From positions 1-63,458 of the forward strand of contig CALVCQ010000008.1 of NCBI GenBank assembly GCA_944326115.1: a DNA stretch of 63,458 nucleotides, written 5' to 3'. The notes beneath the pieces were generated by a model. The model did not search any database and had not been told where the DNA came from. It saw nothing but the letters and a program-made list of their open reading frames with translations. Both the position numbers and the translations under genes were made by a program. Positions 4,633-31,352 of this stretch are shown piece by piece. The DNA is from Candidatus Gastranaerophilales bacterium (GTDB lineage Bacteria; Cyanobacteriota; Vampirovibrionia; Gastranaerophilales; Gastranaerophilaceae). Positions within the stretch are counted from its first letter, which is position 1. Each line of letters starts with the position of its first letter.

Positions 4633-5129
4633 CTTAGCTTGCCCCCGAGAGTATCCTGAGGTGTACGGCTTGTATTAATCTTAATCTATACGACACGCAA
4701 AAGCTTCGCTTTTGACTTAGTCTGTGTCCTTCCGAAACGTGCCACAGGTCTCTTTCGTACGAACAAAGTCCGGGGGGCGAGGTATGAAGTGAACACAAGC
4801 GGAACAAAACGAACGGCAGTAACGAGCGTGAAGAAAATCCAAGAGCGGATTTTGGCAAGGCTGACTGAATGAAATGAGGGAACGCCGTCCCGTGAAAAAG
4901 TTTGACGAAGTGAGATTTGCAAAGCAAATCTAAACGGAGTGCAAAAACTTTTGAACTGCCAATAATCCAAGAGCGGATTTTGGCAAGGCTGACTGAATGA
5001 AATGAGGGAACGCCGTCCCGTGAAAAAGTTTGACGAAGTGAGATTTGCAAAGCAAATCTAAACGGAGTGCAAAAACTTTTGAACTGCCAATAATCCAAGG
5101 CGTAGTCGGAGTCAGTTGACGATATGAAA
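4633..5129 (-). repeat. Modular intergenic repeat, copy A2 (two tandem 128-bp units, inverted)
   Basis: This is the inverted counterpart of A1. Two 128-bp units occupy about 4843-5098, with the same sequence as the A1 units on the opposite strand. The right edge (5102-5129) is the reverse complement of the A1 terminal motif; the match between the outer ends of A1 and A2 is perfect for 44 bp, to position 5086. The left part (4633-4830) is a diverged version of the A1 distal module and contains a strong hairpin CAAAAGC/GCTTTTG at about 4699-4714. Open frames here are repeat-derived. Confidence 0.9.
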
Positions 5130-5514: not shown

Positions 5515-6837
5515 TTAAGCGTCAGTGGTTGATTTTAGATATTCTATTGAACGGTTAGAGAGCATTTCATTTTTCAGCTTTTTATTTTTTCTGATTTTTT
5601 TATCAACATTAATCTCTTCTACTATGCCCCAGTTGGAGTTTATCGGCTGAAAATGTTTTTGTTCACTGTCTGAAATATAATGTGTTAATGCACCAAGCAT
5701 TGTAATTTTTGGAAGTTCTAACAAAGGTTCATCTTTTAAAAGTTTTGCCATGTTAATACCGGCAAGCATTCCCGTTGCTATTGACTCGGTGTATCCTTCT
5801 GTACCGGTAAGCTGTCCGGCAAAAAACAGGTCTTCACGTTTTTTGCATTGCAGAGTCGGATAAAGCACAGCAGGACTATTTATAAAAGTATTTCTGTGCA
5901 TTACTCCGTATCGTAATATATTTGCATTTTCCAGTCCGGGGATTGCTTTTAAAAGTTCTTTCTGGCTTCCCCATTTTAAATTTGTCTGAAATCCAACAAG
6001 ATTGTACATTGTAGCGTCTTTGTTATCCTGCCGGAGCTGTACCACCGCATAGTTTTCTACTCCTGTACGTTTATCAACAAGACCTACAGGCTTCATCGGA
6101 CCGAAACGTAATGTATCTTTGCCCCTTGAAGCAAGAACTTCTATTGGCAGGCAAGATTCAAAAAATTTAGCCCTGTCTTTTGAATTTTTTTCAAACTCTT
6201 TAAGCTCTATTCTGGGAGCATTTATCAAAATTTCATAAAATTTTTCATATTCTTCTTTATTCATCGGGCAGTTGATATAAGAGGCTTCCCCTTTATCATA
6301 ACGGCTTGCGTAAAACGCTTTGTCAAAATTTATAGAGTCTTTTTCCACAATCGGCGCAATAGCATCAAAGAAATGCAAATGTTCTTCACCGGTAAATTTT
6401 TGAATATCTGCTGCAAGAGCATCAGAGGTCAAAGGACCGGATGCCAGTATAACAGGGCAATTTTCAGGAATAGTTTTTACTTCTTCTCTGATTAAATTAA
6501 TTCTGCCGGATTGTGATATCAATTCTTCAACTTTTTGAGAAAACAAATTTCTGTCAATAGCAAGAGCATTACCCGCAGGAACCTGAACATCTTTTGCTAT
6601 TTTTATAAGAAACGAGTCCAAAAAGGACATTTCTTTTTTTAAAAGCCCGCTTGCATTTGAAGAATCTAAAGAGCCCAGACTGTTACTGCATACAAATTCC
6701 GCAAGATGTTGGGTTGAGTGAGCACCGGTAGTTGTTTTAGGGCGCATTTCGTATAAATCTACATCAATACCGTGCTTTGCCAGTTGTAATGCTGCTTCAC
6801 ATCCTGCCAGACCCGCACCTACTACCGCTGCTTTCAT
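5515..6837 (-). CDS. trmFO: TrmFO, folate/FAD-dependent tRNA (uracil-54-C5) methyltransferase
   Basis: The 440-residue protein begins with an FAD-binding Rossmann motif (VVGAGLAGCEAALQLA) followed by the TrmFO-typical YEMRP and FVCSNSLGS segments. Later hallmarks are the NCPM segment (~residue 190), LRFGPMKPVGL and FAGQLTGTEGYTES. The family uses 5,10-methylene-tetrahydrofolate and FADH2 to make ribothymidine at position 54 of tRNAs in the cytoplasm. The length is normal. The start codon overlaps the stop of the upstream HD-GYP gene (TAATG), so the two are translationally coupled. Confidence 0.97.
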   Translation of the reverse strand: MKAAVVGAGLAGCEAALQLAKHGIDVDLYEMRPKTTTGAHSTQHLAEFVCSNSLGSLDSSNASGLLKKEMSFLDSFLIKIAKDVQVPAGNALAIDRNLFSQKVEELISQSGRINLIREEVKTIPENCPVILASGPLTSDALAADIQKFTGEEHLHFFDAIAPIVEKDSINFDKAFYASRYDKGEASYINCPMNKEEYEKFYEILINAPRIELKEFEKNSKDRAKFFESCLPIEVLASRGKDTLRFGPMKPVGLVDKRTGVENYAVVQLRQDNKDATMYNLVGFQTNLKWGSQKELLKAIPGLENANILRYGVMHRNTFINSPAVLYPTLQCKKREDLFFAGQLTGTEGYTESIATGMLAGINMAKLLKDEPLLELPKITMLGALTHYISDSEQKHFQPINSNWGIVEEINVDKKIRKNKKLKNEMLSNRSIEYLKSTTDA

Positions 6838-7844
6838 TATTGCACCATCTCGTCGTAGGATTCCAGATCATTATAGTTAAACATATTCACAAACTGGTAT
6901 AAAATTTCCGGGAAAAATCGTTTTGAACCTATTTCAAGCATTACTCTTAATGCCTCTTTTGTATTTTTAACCTTGTGATTTGTTCTGTTAGAGGTCAAAT
7001 CGTCAAAAAAGCTGCACAGACCTACGACCCTTGTAAGAGAAGAAATCTGCTCTCCTGACAGTTTAAAAGGATATCCTGAACCGTCATTGTTCTCATGGTG
7101 TTCAAGAGCAACAAGACAAATATCTTCCGGCAGTCCCATTTCATATTTTAAAATTTTATAACCAATCTGTGTATGTGTTTGAAATACTTTATTATCCTGT
7201 TGTGAAAGATTCGTTTTTTCAAGAATTTCTTTAGGAAGTCTTGTCATTCCTATATCATGCAGCAAAGATGCCTGTGCGAGCTTTTCTATTAAATCTTCAT
7301 CATATTCGAGCTTATAACCCATTGCAGTTGCAAGAATAGCTGTGTTTAAAGAATGACAATCGTAATAATTGCCAAGCAATTTTAACTGGGAACAGAATTT
7401 TACATCAGGTATAATTGCCTGTACATCGTTGAGAATCTTGTCTTTTATTTCATCTACCATTTGTACGGCATCTTTATTTGCTTTTTCTTTTATGGCAAAC
7501 ATTGTAGTTGCATAATAAGATTTCATATCAACCTGTGCTTGTGCTTTAAATTTTGATTTTCTGTTGACTGTTTTATCAAAAATTATTTCTTTGGGGCGTT
7601 CAGGCTCAAAAGAATCATCCTGCAAAGGTTTGGAAAGATCTTCCAAAGAATCTTTCGGTTTAGGCGCCGGTCTCTCAACTATTTTAGGAGTAGATTTGTA
7701 CAAAACATCATACTGGCTTATTTGCAACAATTTGCCTGATGTAAGTATTTCACCGGCATCAACGAGTTTTTCTCCCTGCTCATTGTATATATCAAAGGGG
7801 AGTAATTTAAATTTTACTAATTCTTCAACAGGAATTTTTTCCAT
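6837..7844 (-). CDS. HD-GYP domain protein with degenerate active site
   Basis: A 335-residue protein. The N-terminal ~120 residues resemble no enzyme I can name and include a Pro/Glu-rich linker. Residues ~155-325 form an HD-GYP domain with LLHDIG (~194-199), a following His in THTQIG, and EHHENNDGSGYP. The family hydrolyses cyclic di-GMP using a metal cluster. Two expected residues differ: the Lys of HDxGK is Met (~200), and the Asp of the usual ADxFDAL motif is Ser in CSFFDDL (~278). Catalysis may be weakened or lost, leaving a binding or scaffold role. The gene is coupled to trmFO and has a modest RBS (GGGAT) before the ATG. Confidence 0.88.
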   Translation of the reverse strand: MEKIPVEELVKFKLLPFDIYNEQGEKLVDAGEILTSGKLLQISQYDVLYKSTPKIVERPAPKPKDSLEDLSKPLQDDSFEPERPKEIIFDKTVNRKSKFKAQAQVDMKSYYATTMFAIKEKANKDAVQMVDEIKDKILNDVQAIIPDVKFCSQLKLLGNYYDCHSLNTAILATAMGYKLEYDEDLIEKLAQASLLHDIGMTRLPKEILEKTNLSQQDNKVFQTHTQIGYKILKYEMGLPEDICLVALEHHENNDGSGYPFKLSGEQISSLTRVVGLCSFFDDLTSNRTNHKVKNTKEALRVMLEIGSKRFFPEILYQFVNMFNYNDLESYDEMVQ

Positions 7845-15660: not shown

Positions 15661-16230
15661 TTAGTATCTGGTTGATTTGAATACCATATAATATTTTGTC
15701 TCGCCGTAGTATAAAATAATGAGGTAAAAATTGCCTTCTATATTTTCTGTAAAGACATAAGACTGAGGCGGAGGTGCTTTTTTTGAAGAATTTCTGAATA
15801 CTGTATAGAATTTTTCTCTTACATTTTTACAAAAACTCTGCCATTTTGTAAGTTTAGGGGTTGGCAGGTTATTGTGATAAAAATCAACGGGAACAAGTTC
15901 TTTTTTTATAACAGGTATGATATAAGAAACTTTTCCTGCTTCTTTAAAAAATACATAATCTCTGTCTTTTATAACCCTCGGCGTTAATATATAGTACCCT
16001 GCGGGAATTGTTTGATTCTTAAAATAAACAGTTGAGCTTAACCGGAAAAGAGGGTACGGAGCGTAGGCATATTTTTGGTAATCTTCATTTTGATAAGGAT
16101 CGAGTCTGTGTACAAGTTCAAAATCCGCAACCTGAGTTTTTTCATATAATGCGGCATAGTCTGTTTTGCAAAATGCGCCTGTACAGCTGAAAGCAATAAA
16201 TATAAATAATGTATAAAAAATTTTCTTCAT
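15661..16230 (-). CDS. Hypothetical secreted protein
   Basis: A 189-residue protein with a clear signal peptide (MKKIFYTLFIFIAFSCTGAF) ending near residue 20. The Cys in this region is not in a standard lipobox. The mature part is rich in Tyr, Phe and Lys with alternating hydrophobic strands (YYILTPRVIKDRDYVFF), suggesting a small periplasmic or outer-membrane beta domain. No family is recognised. No strong RBS precedes the ATG. Confidence 0.65.
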   Translation of the reverse strand: MKKIFYTLFIFIAFSCTGAFCKTDYAALYEKTQVADFELVHRLDPYQNEDYQKYAYAPYPLFRLSSTVYFKNQTIPAGYYILTPRVIKDRDYVFFKEAGKVSYIIPVIKKELVPVDFYHNNLPTPKLTKWQSFCKNVREKFYTVFRNSSKKAPPPQSYVFTENIEGNFYLIILYYGETKYYMVFKSTRY

Positions 16231-28305: not shown

Positions 28306-28341
28306 TTTTTATCATAAATGTTAAACGGACAAATTGCAATA

Positions 28342-28636
28342 TTTCATATCGTCAACCGACTCCGAGTACGTCTTGGATTATTGGCGTTCGTAAGGTTTTG
28401 CACTCCGTTTAGATTTGCTTTGCAAATCTCACTTCGTCAAACTTTTTCACAGGACGGCGTTCCCTCTTTTCATTCGGTCAGCCTTGCCAAAATCAGCTCT
28501 TGGATTTTCTTCATGCTCGGACAGTTTCCAATTTTTATACTGCACGGAGATACGAAGTATCTCACTGCAGTATAAAGATTAACAACGCCATACGCATCAG
28601 GCTGCCCTCGGGTACAAGCGGGCAGCCTCAGACGTT
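28342..28636 (+). repeat. Modular intergenic repeat, copy A3 (one unit)
   Basis: It starts with the family terminal motif (TTTCATATCGTCAACCGACT), has a single 127-bp unit beginning at 28373, and ends with the same distal module as A1: a stem with arms TTTATACTGCA and TGCAGTATAAA around GAGATACGAAGTATCTC, then CCCTCGGGTACAAGCG. It faces copy A4 across the EF-hand gene. Confidence 0.9.
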
Positions 28637-28652
28637 TATCTGTTTGTGATTA

Positions 28653-29135
28653 TTACATCAAATAGCTGACAGCATTTGCAGCAAGCTTTGTCATTGCTGA
28701 ACTTGCATAATAATTTTTGCATAAATTCTGTGCAAGATTTTGTGCTGCAGTGCCAAAATTTTGGGTTGTTTGAATTTCTCTCAGCGCACCTTTTAAAATA
28801 TCTGGCACATTCCCGTCAGGATTAGTTTCTTGATAAGTGATTGCTCCGTCTTTATCGGTGTCTATATATTCTGATAATTTTTCAATTGTATTATTTTCAA
28901 GTATCTTTTTTAATTCTTCATTTTTTGCATCACGTGCAGTCTGTATGGCAATTTCGTTTTTTGATAAAATATTGTCTGCATTTTGGTCTATTGTATCAAA
29001 ATTATTTTTTAAATAGTCTGCAAAATTTCTTGTATCAGTATTTAAAAAAGTTGATGTATATGTCTGTGCTTTTTGATACAGCCCCGAAATAATGCTGTTT
29101 TGTAATAAATCCCCGTTATTTACCTGAAGACCCAT
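28653..29135 (-). CDS. EF-hand calcium-binding protein
   Basis: A 160-residue soluble protein with two EF-hand loops: DQNADNILSKNE (~residues 50-61) and DTDKDGAITYQE (~91-102). Both keep acidic or Asn ligands at 1, 3 and 5 and Glu at 12; the second is a textbook loop. There is no signal peptide. It could be a calcium sensor or buffer; the flanks do not match a dockerin. RBS GGGGAG precedes the ATG. The gene is the only content between inverted repeats A3 and A4. Confidence 0.82.
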   Translation of the reverse strand: MGLQVNNGDLLQNSIISGLYQKAQTYTSTFLNTDTRNFADYLKNNFDTIDQNADNILSKNEIAIQTARDAKNEELKKILENNTIEKLSEYIDTDKDGAITYQETNPDGNVPDILKGALREIQTTQNFGTAAQNLAQNLCKNYYASSAMTKLAANAVSYLM

Positions 29136-29238: not shown

Positions 29239-29481
29239 ACCTTGCTTGTACCCGAGGGCATTCTGCTGCGTACGGCGTGCAGTATAAAAATTGGAAACTG
29301 TCCGAGCGTGAAGAAAATCCAAGAGCGGATTTTGACAAGGCTGACCGAATGAAAAGAGGGAACGCCGTCCTGTGAAAAAGTTTGACATAGAGAGATTTGC
29401 AAAGCAAATCTAAAAGGAGTGCAAAAACTTTTGAACTGCCAATAATCCAAGAAGAAATCGGAATCAGTTGACAATATGAAA
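29239..29481 (-). repeat. Modular intergenic repeat, copy A4 (one unit, inverted)
   Basis: On the minus strand it reads from a diverged terminal motif (29458-29481) into one 128-bp unit (about 29323-29450) and the distal module ending in the complement of CCCTCGGGTACAAG near 29250. It is the inverted partner of A3. The remaining gap up to 29553 shows only the RBS of the next gene. Confidence 0.88.
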
Positions 29482-29553
29482 TTACAGAGGCAATTTAGAC
29501 ATTTAAAATTTTTATGTTATTATTAAAAAGTTCCTCATACACGGAGAAATCTT

Positions 29554-31134
29554 ATGAATCCATTTGGGTCTTTGTTTTTGACACTGGTTCTGCTTCTATC
29601 TTTTCAAAATACAACTTTTGCAGATGCCGCCGCTCATAAACAAGCTTTGCAAAAAGCTAAAACAGCTGTTGATAAAGATTCCGTAAAAATTGATAAAACA
29701 CACTTTTATCCTGAATATCATCTCGCAGCCCCTGCAAATAGAATGACTAATCCCGGAGCTCTTTCTTATTTTAAAGGGCAATATCATATTTTTTATCAGC
29801 ACAATCCGTTTTCTTCAGAATCCGGAAATATGCACTGGGGACATTATGTGAGTCCGGATTTGATTCATTGGACAGAAATGCCGATTGCGCTTGCTCCGTC
29901 AGAAAATTATGATAAAGACGGTATACTTTCAGGAAGTGCTATTGCTGATGATAATCTTTTGTATTTATTATATACAGGCAATGTTGTTAACAAAAAAGAT
30001 GACAAAACAGAAATTCATCAGACACAGAATCTTGCAATGAGTAAAGACGGTATAAATTTCGGAAAATCAGCAAATAATCCGATAATTAATATGGCACCTC
30101 ATTATTCAATACTTAATTTTTCATTAAAAGATTTTAGAAATCCGTATATATGGAAACAATCGGACAGATATTATGCTCTTGTAGGTTCTCAATACGAAAA
30201 GACAAAAGACGGCGCAGTACTTCTTTTTAAAAGCAAAGATTTAAGAAACTGGGTGCTTATAAATATTACTGCTATAGGTTCAAACGGAGAAATGGGGTAT
30301 ATGTGGGAAAGTCCTGCTTTTCTGCATATTGGCAATGATGATGTATTAATGATTTCTCCACAGGGGATAAAACCTCACGGCAAAATGTTTCTGAACAAAT
30401 ATCAATCCGGCTGGTTTATCGGAAAGCTCGATTATGATACCGGCAAATTTAAACAAAAAGGACCGTTCGGTTTATTTGATTATGGTTTTGATTTTTATGC
30501 ACCGCAAGTAGTTAAAACACATGAGGGTAAACATATCATAATTGGTTTACTTGATATGTGTGACACAAATATGCCCGAAACCGCTTATGGTTGGGCCGGC
30601 ATGATGAGCATTCCACGTGAATTAAAAATACATAACGGTAAGATTATTACTGTTCCATTCGACGGACTCAAAGTCTTAAGGTATGAGTCAGCTAATTACA
30701 AAGATCAAAAACTGAATGGTACGAGAGATTTCAGTCGTATAAACGGCAGTGTCTACGAATTGATAATTACAGCTGATTTGACTGTTGCAAAATCTTTTGC
30801 TGTTAAATTAAGAGAAAACTCTTCACAAGAAACAGTTTTGAGTTATGATAAAGAAAGTAATATCTTAAAATTGAACCGTGACAAATCGAGTGCAAATCCG
30901 AATCATATACTTACAGGTGAAAGAGAAGTATCTCTTCCCATTGAAAACAATATTTTGAAACTTCATATATTTGTTGACAAGTCTTCTGTAGAAATTTTTG
31001 CTAATGACGGTCAGGCGGTCATGAGTTCCAGAATTTATCCCGATAAAAATGCAACCGGTGTGAAATTTGTTTCAGACGGTGATGTTAAGATTAAGTCTTT
31101 AGACTTTTACAAATTAAAGACAGCTAATAATTAA
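29554..31134 (+). CDS. Secreted GH32-like protein (fructan hydrolase fold) with two catalytic Asp replaced by Asn
   Basis: A 526-residue protein with a signal peptide (residues ~1-24, cleavage near FADA). It follows the GH32 layout: a five-bladed propeller with YHIFYQHNP, MHWGHYVSPDLIHW and a C-terminal beta-sandwich (residues ~370-520) ending with the VDKSSVEIFANDG motif. GH32 enzymes split sucrose, levan or inulin using the Asp of NDPNG, the Asp of RDP and the Glu of EC. Here these read TNPGA (Asn66), FRNP (Asn196) and WESP (Glu252): the nucleophile and the transition-state stabiliser are both Asn. The protein is probably an inactive sugar-binding relative, or uses altered chemistry. RBS GGAGAAATCTT supports the start. 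Confidence 0.87.
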   Translation: MNPFGSLFLTLVLLLSFQNTTFADAAAHKQALQKAKTAVDKDSVKIDKTHFYPEYHLAAPANRMTNPGALSYFKGQYHIFYQHNPFSSESGNMHWGHYVSPDLIHWTEMPIALAPSENYDKDGILSGSAIADDNLLYLLYTGNVVNKKDDKTEIHQTQNLAMSKDGINFGKSANNPIINMAPHYSILNFSLKDFRNPYIWKQSDRYYALVGSQYEKTKDGAVLLFKSKDLRNWVLINITAIGSNGEMGYMWESPAFLHIGNDDVLMISPQGIKPHGKMFLNKYQSGWFIGKLDYDTGKFKQKGPFGLFDYGFDFYAPQVVKTHEGKHIIIGLLDMCDTNMPETAYGWAGMMSIPRELKIHNGKIITVPFDGLKVLRYESANYKDQKLNGTRDFSRINGSVYELIITADLTVAKSFAVKLRENSSQETVLSYDKESNILKLNRDKSSANPNHILTGEREVSLPIENNILKLHIFVDKSSVEIFANDGQAVMSSRIYPDKNATGVKFVSDGDVKIKSLDFYKLKTANN

Positions 31135-31151
31135 ATATATTTGTAATATAA

Positions 31152-31224
31152 GCCGGTGTAGCTCAGCTGGTAGAGCAGGTCATTCGTAATGATCAGGTCG
31201 CAGGTTCGAACCCCGTCACCGGCT
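31152..31224 (+). tRNA. tRNA-Thr (anticodon CGT)
   Basis: Acceptor arms GCCGGTG and CACCGGC pair fully. The D arm is GCTCAGCTGGTAGAGC, the anticodon loop TTCGTAA gives CGT, and the T loop is TTCGAAC. The T stem GCAGG/CCCGT contains one A-C mismatch, unusual for this tRNA. The discriminator is T and CCA is not encoded. A 58-bp segment starting inside this gene is repeated 84 bp downstream. Confidence 0.92.
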
Positions 31225-31352
31225 TTTTATCACAGAGATAGCGAACCTGCGACCATCGCAGGAAAATTAAAAGAGCAGGCATTCGCCCGCTCAGCCCCGT
31301 CACCGGCTTTTTATCACAGAGATAGCGAACCTGCGACCATCGCAGGAAAATT
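31211..31352 (+). repeat. Duplicated tRNA-Thr 3' end plus downstream hairpin; decayed tRNA copy
   Basis: Two identical 58-bp segments (31211-31268 and 31295-31352) start with the last 14 bases of tRNA-Thr and run through a hairpin CCTGCGA/TCGCAGG. The 26-bp spacer contains AGAGCAGG-CATTCG, which matches the D-stem to anticodon region of the tRNA with one base lost. The second copy is therefore a truncated tRNA-Thr remnant. An inverted piece of the tRNA T arm (CGAACCTGCGAC) also lies in each copy. An open frame over this region is not a gene. Confidence 0.85.

Follow-up and report, generated by a model that had tools for sequence, protein, structure and literature searches.

What is a beta-fructosidase fold kept for once its catalytic nucleophile has gone? 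The question is raised by the only glycoside hydrolase family 32 (GH32) gene of a Candidatus Gastranaerophilales bacterium, located at 29554-31134 on the forward strand of contig CALVCQ010000008.1 (63,458 nucleotides, analysed at full length and called the window below), which is part of a 2.15 Mb metagenome-assembled genome (MAG). Our answer is that the encoded protein is probably an exported GH32 pseudoenzyme that is selected for something other than hydrolysis: the nucleophile has been lost in 25 of 27 relatives, yet the rest of the protein remains under selection, and a role that involves no cutting is therefore the most likely one.

An altered active site in a GH32 fold

Of the three catalytic residues that mark a competent GH32 beta-fructosidase, the window protein has kept one. 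The nucleophile Asp is replaced by Asn66 (codon AAT, 29749-29751; MTNPGA aligned to MNDPNG) and the stabilising Asp of the RDP motif by Asn196 (codon AAT, 30139-30141; in FRNP), while the acid/base Glu252 is retained (codon GAA, 30307-30309; in MWESP). Codons, alignment, Pfam matches and structural model thus all bear out what the preliminary description had read from this DNA, namely a GH32 fold with TNPGA and RNP motifs and an intact Glu252. A search for an independent assembly of exactly this species that could confirm the base calls at codons 66 and 196 found none.

The changes extend well beyond these two residues and include W63R, N65T, N68G, G69A, Ser90, F125L, C253S, W332L and W336C. 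In the altered WMNDPNG motif (RMTNPGA, residues 63-69; 29740-29760), column 66 is Asp in 19/19 active outgroup proteins and in 0/25 inactive relatives. The pocket loop of residues 90-98 (SGNMHWGHY; 29821-29847) starts with Ser90 at the position of W47 of AtcwINV1 and W79 of KcINU1, and Leu125-Ser126 of the FSGS motif (29926-29931) is the equivalent of KcINU1 F113L. The altered RDP motif spans residues 195-197 (30136-30144); in the acid/base motif WESP (residues 251-254; 30304-30315) the Cys of ECP has become Ser253. Two Trp residues of the pocket rim, assigned by alignment columns, are now Leu332 and Cys336 (30547-30561; compare KcINU1 W334L): column 332 is Trp in all 19 active GH32 proteins, and column 336 is Trp in 13 of these 19 (6 are gapped) and in none of the 25 inactive ones. 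Glu252, Arg195, Ser126 and Gln82 are retained.

Published mutants indicate which of these changes matter. In BmSUC1, the nucleophile mutant D63A is inactive and the RDP mutant D181A is more active than the wild type (PMC5877544), so that Asn66 and not Asn196 is decisive. No activity was detectable in the KcINU1 mutants W79L, F113L, R181L/K, C239A and W334L (PMC7545266), and four of the five positions (90, 125, 253 and 336) are also substituted in the window protein, with W334 equated to column 336 by motif and not by structure. Ser90 alone is neither fatal nor diagnostic, because position 90 is His in both intact relatives (L002 and L003, see below) and because the R. dairenensis invertase is also reported to have no Trp at the equivalent position, as placed by motif. 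The window protein nevertheless combines several changes that each abolish activity elsewhere, the nucleophile loss (as in BmSUC1 D63A) and the equivalents of KcINU1 F113L and C239A, and we infer that it has no hydrolytic activity.

The fold itself appears unharmed. The open reading frame of the 526-residue protein (P0001) is intact, starts with ATG and is preceded by a Shine-Dalgarno-like GGAG at 29544-29547. It matches PF00251 (E=1.2e-86; 29719-30651) and PF08244 (E=4.4e-31), and the five-bladed beta-propeller and C-terminal beta-sandwich of GH32 are found both in these matches and in an AlphaFold model, for which proteins of the window lineage were aligned with those of the outgroup. The model has a mean predicted local distance difference test score (pLDDT) of 87.7, mostly above 90 in the sandwich (residues 375-519; 30676-31110), and contains the strands of the PF00251 region. 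Its nearest solved structures in Foldseek are active GH32 enzymes, first of all 7vco of Frischella perrara (template modelling scores 0.87/0.94), which is also the closest solved relative by sequence (E=6.6e-102). In NCBIfam, P0001 scores 420.5 bits against TIGR01322 (scrB_fam, sucrose-6-phosphate hydrolase; cut-off 356.4) despite the lost nucleophile, and automated annotation would therefore call it an active enzyme.

Export is predicted from the N-terminus: residues 1 to about 24 (MNPFGSLFLTLVLLLSFQNTTFAD; 29554-29625) resemble a Sec-type signal peptide, by heuristic assignment, with a hydrophobic core whose Kyte-Doolittle mean is 2.6, then TFA/ADA, and with an n-region that has no charged residue. 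Signal-peptide-like N-termini are present throughout the family. In four members from genus g23 (L005, L007, L009 and L010), a linker of about 80-100 residues, rich in Lys, Glu, Thr and Gln and resembling a surface stalk, separates the signal peptide from the GH32 domain.

Distribution and phylogeny of nucleophile loss

GH32 proteins are rare in this bacterial family: they are present in 27 of 383 genomes, all from three genera and with one copy per genome. The genus of the window accounts for most of them (21 of its 23 genomes), and in a class-wide sample strong matches were confined to the family, with weak partial matches elsewhere. Literature searches found no published report of these Gastranaerophilales GH32 proteins. 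All 27 reading frames are intact. Twenty-five of the 27, from different MAGs across the three genera, lack the nucleophile Asp, which is invariant in 19 intact GH32 proteins from other phyla; its loss is thus not due to chance or sequencing error. The outgroup was chosen as active. Two further GH32 proteins that lack the nucleophile Asp were left out of it, L060 of Paenibacillus endophyticus (NEPHG) and L076 of a Draconibacterium MAG (6001-7344; GIPGG, RNP and EHP). It was collected with six short peptide patterns; the nucleophile motif is not among them but some touch the pocket loop, so that conservation of this loop in the outgroup is somewhat favoured by the selection.

The whole catalytic triad is kept in two congeners only, L002 (genome G140) and L003 (also L049; genome G076). 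L003 is 81% identical to the window protein and, with complete NDPNG, RDP and ECP motifs and most of the pocket aromatics, is predicted to be active. The 25 inactive members have diverse residues at the nucleophile site: His in seven, Asn in six, Ser in four, Thr and Leu in two each and Lys, Gly, Val and Glu in one each. The RDP Asp is retained in 18 of the 25 and replaced by Asn in five. What recurs is the loss of the nucleophile together with a remodelled pocket; the exact pair of Asp to Asn exchanges is not a conserved signature. The preliminary description had proposed exchanges that keep shape and remove charge and had asked whether orthologues share the two Asn residues. The window protein indeed has Asn at both sites and most of its orthologues have indeed lost the nucleophile, but the idea is too narrow for a family in which most members carry unrelated residues and many pocket positions have changed, and neither Asn is conserved.

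In a phylogenetic tree built with the catalytic columns masked, L002 and L003 are placed separately among the inactive proteins, L003 in a group with the window protein, L004 and L006 (support 100/99). A single clade of all inactive members is rejected by the approximately unbiased (AU) test (p = 8e-5; within the genus of the window 1.3e-4). One ancient loss common to all is thereby rejected and inactivation has been recurrent, unless activity was regained. Unordered parsimony, which permits a single loss followed by two regains, is satisfied with three changes; if a whole pocket cannot be regained, about six losses are needed on the best tree, a number that weak nodes could reduce to about four. 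Regain by transfer is argued against by two observations: L003 has no donor-like tract or local tract of different ancestry that would indicate gene conversion, and both intact genes are at the locus usual for the genus. The window protein, L004 and L006 share W63R, D66N, N68G, F125L and C253S, which suggests that these three descend from one loss. For dating the losses, the rpoB species tree is too poorly resolved within the genus.

Selection on scaffold and pocket

In pairs of proteins that both lack the nucleophile, the ratio of nonsynonymous to synonymous substitution rates (dN/dS; Nei-Gojobori) is 0.04-0.11, with synonymous distances mostly above 1. With maximum likelihood (ML) codon models the values are 0.046-0.062, for the NHP clade (defined below), the g23, L019-L024 and window clades, and 23 inactive proteins together; the value for a comparison set of active Bacillaceae proteins is 0.136. 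Invariant scaffold positions occur across the inactive members. Two hallmarks of a pseudoenzyme are found, purifying selection on the protein and absence of a key catalytic residue. Together with the signal-peptide-like N-terminus and the inactivity of BmSUC1 D63A they support the suggestion, made in the preliminary description, that the window protein is an exported pseudoenzyme.

The constraint is not evenly distributed. When site rates of inactive and active proteins are compared, the largest inversions are at 63-68, 82, 85, 90-98, 125-126, 193-196, 253-255, 332 and 336. As this ranking drew on the same data, we re-tested with 12 pocket sites taken mainly from published enzymes: their mean rate percentile is 0.74 in inactive and 0.06 in active proteins, and in rank tests against all other sites they are faster in the inactive (p = 0.0016) and slower in the active proteins (p = 6e-8). 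The two intact relatives, L002 and L003, are identical at 12 of 12 pocket sites and 68% identical elsewhere, which indicates that loss of constraint on the pocket tracks loss of the nucleophile.

One group of inactive proteins departs from this pattern. In the NHP clade (L017, L018, L011-L013, L015 and L016), an altered pocket with the motifs NHP, RDP and WDCP is jointly conserved, and all seven members carry H66, E82, A126, RDP, D252, C253 and N268. This renewed conservation suggests that the pocket is of importance at least in this clade, where it may have acquired a new function. Pocket-only codon models, unstable with 19 codons and refitted branch lengths, give a pocket dN/dS of 0.016 for the NHP clade; the pocket value for the window clade is about 0.7, versus 0.05 for the rest of the protein, a rough figure from few codons. 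Between the near-identical L004 and L006, three of eight differences are in the 90-95 loop, although numbers are small.

Candidate roles, genomic surroundings and known systems

A plausible history is that an ancestor of the Gastranaerophilales acquired a gene of the ScrB type (sucrose-6-phosphate-hydrolase-like), presumably by transfer, and that this gene then gained a signal peptide. The chemistry of retaining hydrolysis would have been lost repeatedly in different species, with propeller and sandwich kept under strong purifying selection. The window protein would then be exported and fold normally, and would not be expected to hydrolyse sucrose, inulin or levan. The conserved scaffold may act by binding, either with a pocket re-tooled in each lineage or with conserved outer surfaces.

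Several observations weigh against this explanation. The acid/base column is Glu or Asp in all 27 members, for which there is no obvious need in a pure scaffold. Some relatives can do without the gene: no GH32 match is present in two congeners with nearly complete genomes, G100 (99%) and G295 (96%), and the rpoB tree places G100 with the NHP clade, which suggests a secondary loss there. Signal peptides were called by eye and hydropathy only. At the locus usual for the genus, the GH32 gene follows a conserved block of c3 (LptF/G-like), c4 (a major facilitator superfamily transporter), c2 and c1, whereas the window copy is found off this locus, between a SulP transporter gene, accompanied by an EF-hand gene, and tRNA-Thr; the window genome has a c2-like gene at 15661-16230 (this call and the identity of c3 were made by eye) and no c1. 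A search of the locus for a conserved partner gene revealed no functional or dedicated partner.

As to what the exported pseudoenzyme does, one less probable reading is that the dead pocket has become a fast-evolving, lineage-specific recognition site on a rigid propeller, with a different ligand in each species (a glycan, a competitor, a phage or a host molecule) and with separate re-fixation in some clades (His66/Glu82/Asp252). If so, exported recognition proteins would have been made repeatedly from a beta-fructosidase.

Binding of fructan or sucrose, suggested in the preliminary description, now seems unlikely. A lectin that lost catalysis and still holds fructosides in its pocket, for example for capture at the cell surface, would agree with the retained Glu252, Arg195, Ser126 and Gln82 and with crystal structures in which engineered nucleophile-only mutants bind substrate (BmSUC1 D63A, RdINV D188A and AtcwINV1 D23A). 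However, the -1 fructose of KcINU1 is hydrogen-bonded by N52, S114, R181, D182, W79 and W334 (PMC7545266), and only two of these six contacts are kept in the window protein (S126 and R195), which is why a conserved fructoside lectin is not the best reading. Trp336 is gone in all inactive members, and the residues of the pocket vary profoundly from one lineage to another, which would not be expected of a conserved lectin site.

Slightly less probable still is an enzyme re-tooled for another chemistry or substrate, for example with the combination of His66, Asp196 and Asp252 seen in one clade, or in a phosphorylase-like reaction that needs the acid/base only; a precedent for the fold is found among phosphorylases of GH130, a related propeller family, and there is a weak NF052550 match. 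The conserved acid/base column, the frequent RDP Asp and the invariant NHP pocket are in its favour. On the other hand, both Asp sites of the window protein are occupied by Asn, in a mixed and fast-changing pocket, and no consistent new residue has appeared at the nucleophile site across the family.

It is very improbable that the window protein is still an active beta-fructosidase, its substitutions being tolerated or else corrected by deamidation or explained by sequencing error. Asn before Pro deamidates very slowly, and as both Asn66 and Asn196 precede Pro, the deamidation once considered for this protein is unlikely. The dispensable RDP Asp of BmSUC1 (D181A; PMC5877544) and the score above the scrB_fam cut-off speak for activity; the inactivity of nucleophile mutants, the same loss in independent MAGs of relatives, and C253S and F125L at positions lethal to KcINU1 activity speak against it. 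Least likely of all is a recent pseudogene with a frame open by chance, for which the fast pocket change and the gene loss in two congeners could be quoted but which we reject on the low dN/dS at synonymous distances mostly above 1, the 27 intact frames and the invariant scaffold sites.

Further searches were largely negative. GH32 is single-copy and the window genome has no active backup. Pfam gives no confident assignment for c1, the gene's usual neighbour. No sugar phosphotransferase system EIIC scored above cut-off in 16 genomes, from intact and inactive species alike, and PfkB kinases number 3-5 in each of these, so that neither separates the two kinds of species. Defence-system models gave no match, and phage origin was rejected, as a levanase match in PHROGs reflects GH32 homology only. 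Upstream of the gene, a small EF-hand gene (28653-29135) is enclosed by long inverted repeats at 28341-28546 and 29276-29482 (161 nucleotides, 94% complementary, with additional shorter arms); a similar sequence appears to lie near 4634-5098, and this may be a dispersed element. Downstream, two identical 58-nucleotide copies, 84 nucleotides apart (31211-31352), start in the 3' end of tRNA-Thr (31151-31225). Elsewhere in the same MAG, G000:C89:1254-2429 (L158) is a second, divergent match to the RNA polymerase beta subunit (E=3.5e-22) beside a normal rpoB, and may be a foreign contig or an unusual polymerase.

With active GH32 proteins of the ScrB type (7vco of Frischella perrara and BmSUC1, 7bwb) the window protein shares the two-domain fold, 33-36% identity and a TIGR01322 score above cut-off, but it has lost the nucleophile, the ECP Cys and the pocket aromatics, and it has a predicted signal peptide, whereas the nearest outgroup relatives shown start without one. 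Databases probably mislabel it, and models of gut metabolism would credit these bacteria with a breakdown of sucrose and fructan that they probably do not perform. The Draconibacterium protein L076 resembles it in RNP and in the lost nucleophile; it is 28% identical and stands outside the lineage-wide pattern. L003 is from the same genus and also has a predicted signal peptide, and differs by its complete motifs and its place at the usual locus. As intact relatives at the same locus exist within the genus, one of them 81% identical, L003 and the window protein are an unusually clean pair for asking which function preserves a glycoside hydrolase fold after cutting has ceased.

As a rule, a pseudoenzyme is a duplicate that persists alongside an active copy. 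This case is different: the exported glycoside hydrolase is encoded once per genome, most species of the lineage no longer have its nucleophile, apparently after more than one loss, and the protein has nevertheless been preserved. The nearest precedent is the defective invertases of plants, such as tobacco Nin88, exported GH32-fold proteins with no invertase activity and a non-catalytic regulatory role (PMC3713406); by analogy, the window protein may work most like these. The parallel has two limits: Nin88 assists active cell-wall invertases and no further GH32 is encoded in the window genome, and plant defective invertases reportedly always keep the catalytic triad, their defect being in glucose-binding Asp/Lys or Trp residues (PMC3713406). 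With two of three triad residues changed, the window protein contradicts the plant-derived generalisation that GH32 proteins without a catalytic role retain the triad.
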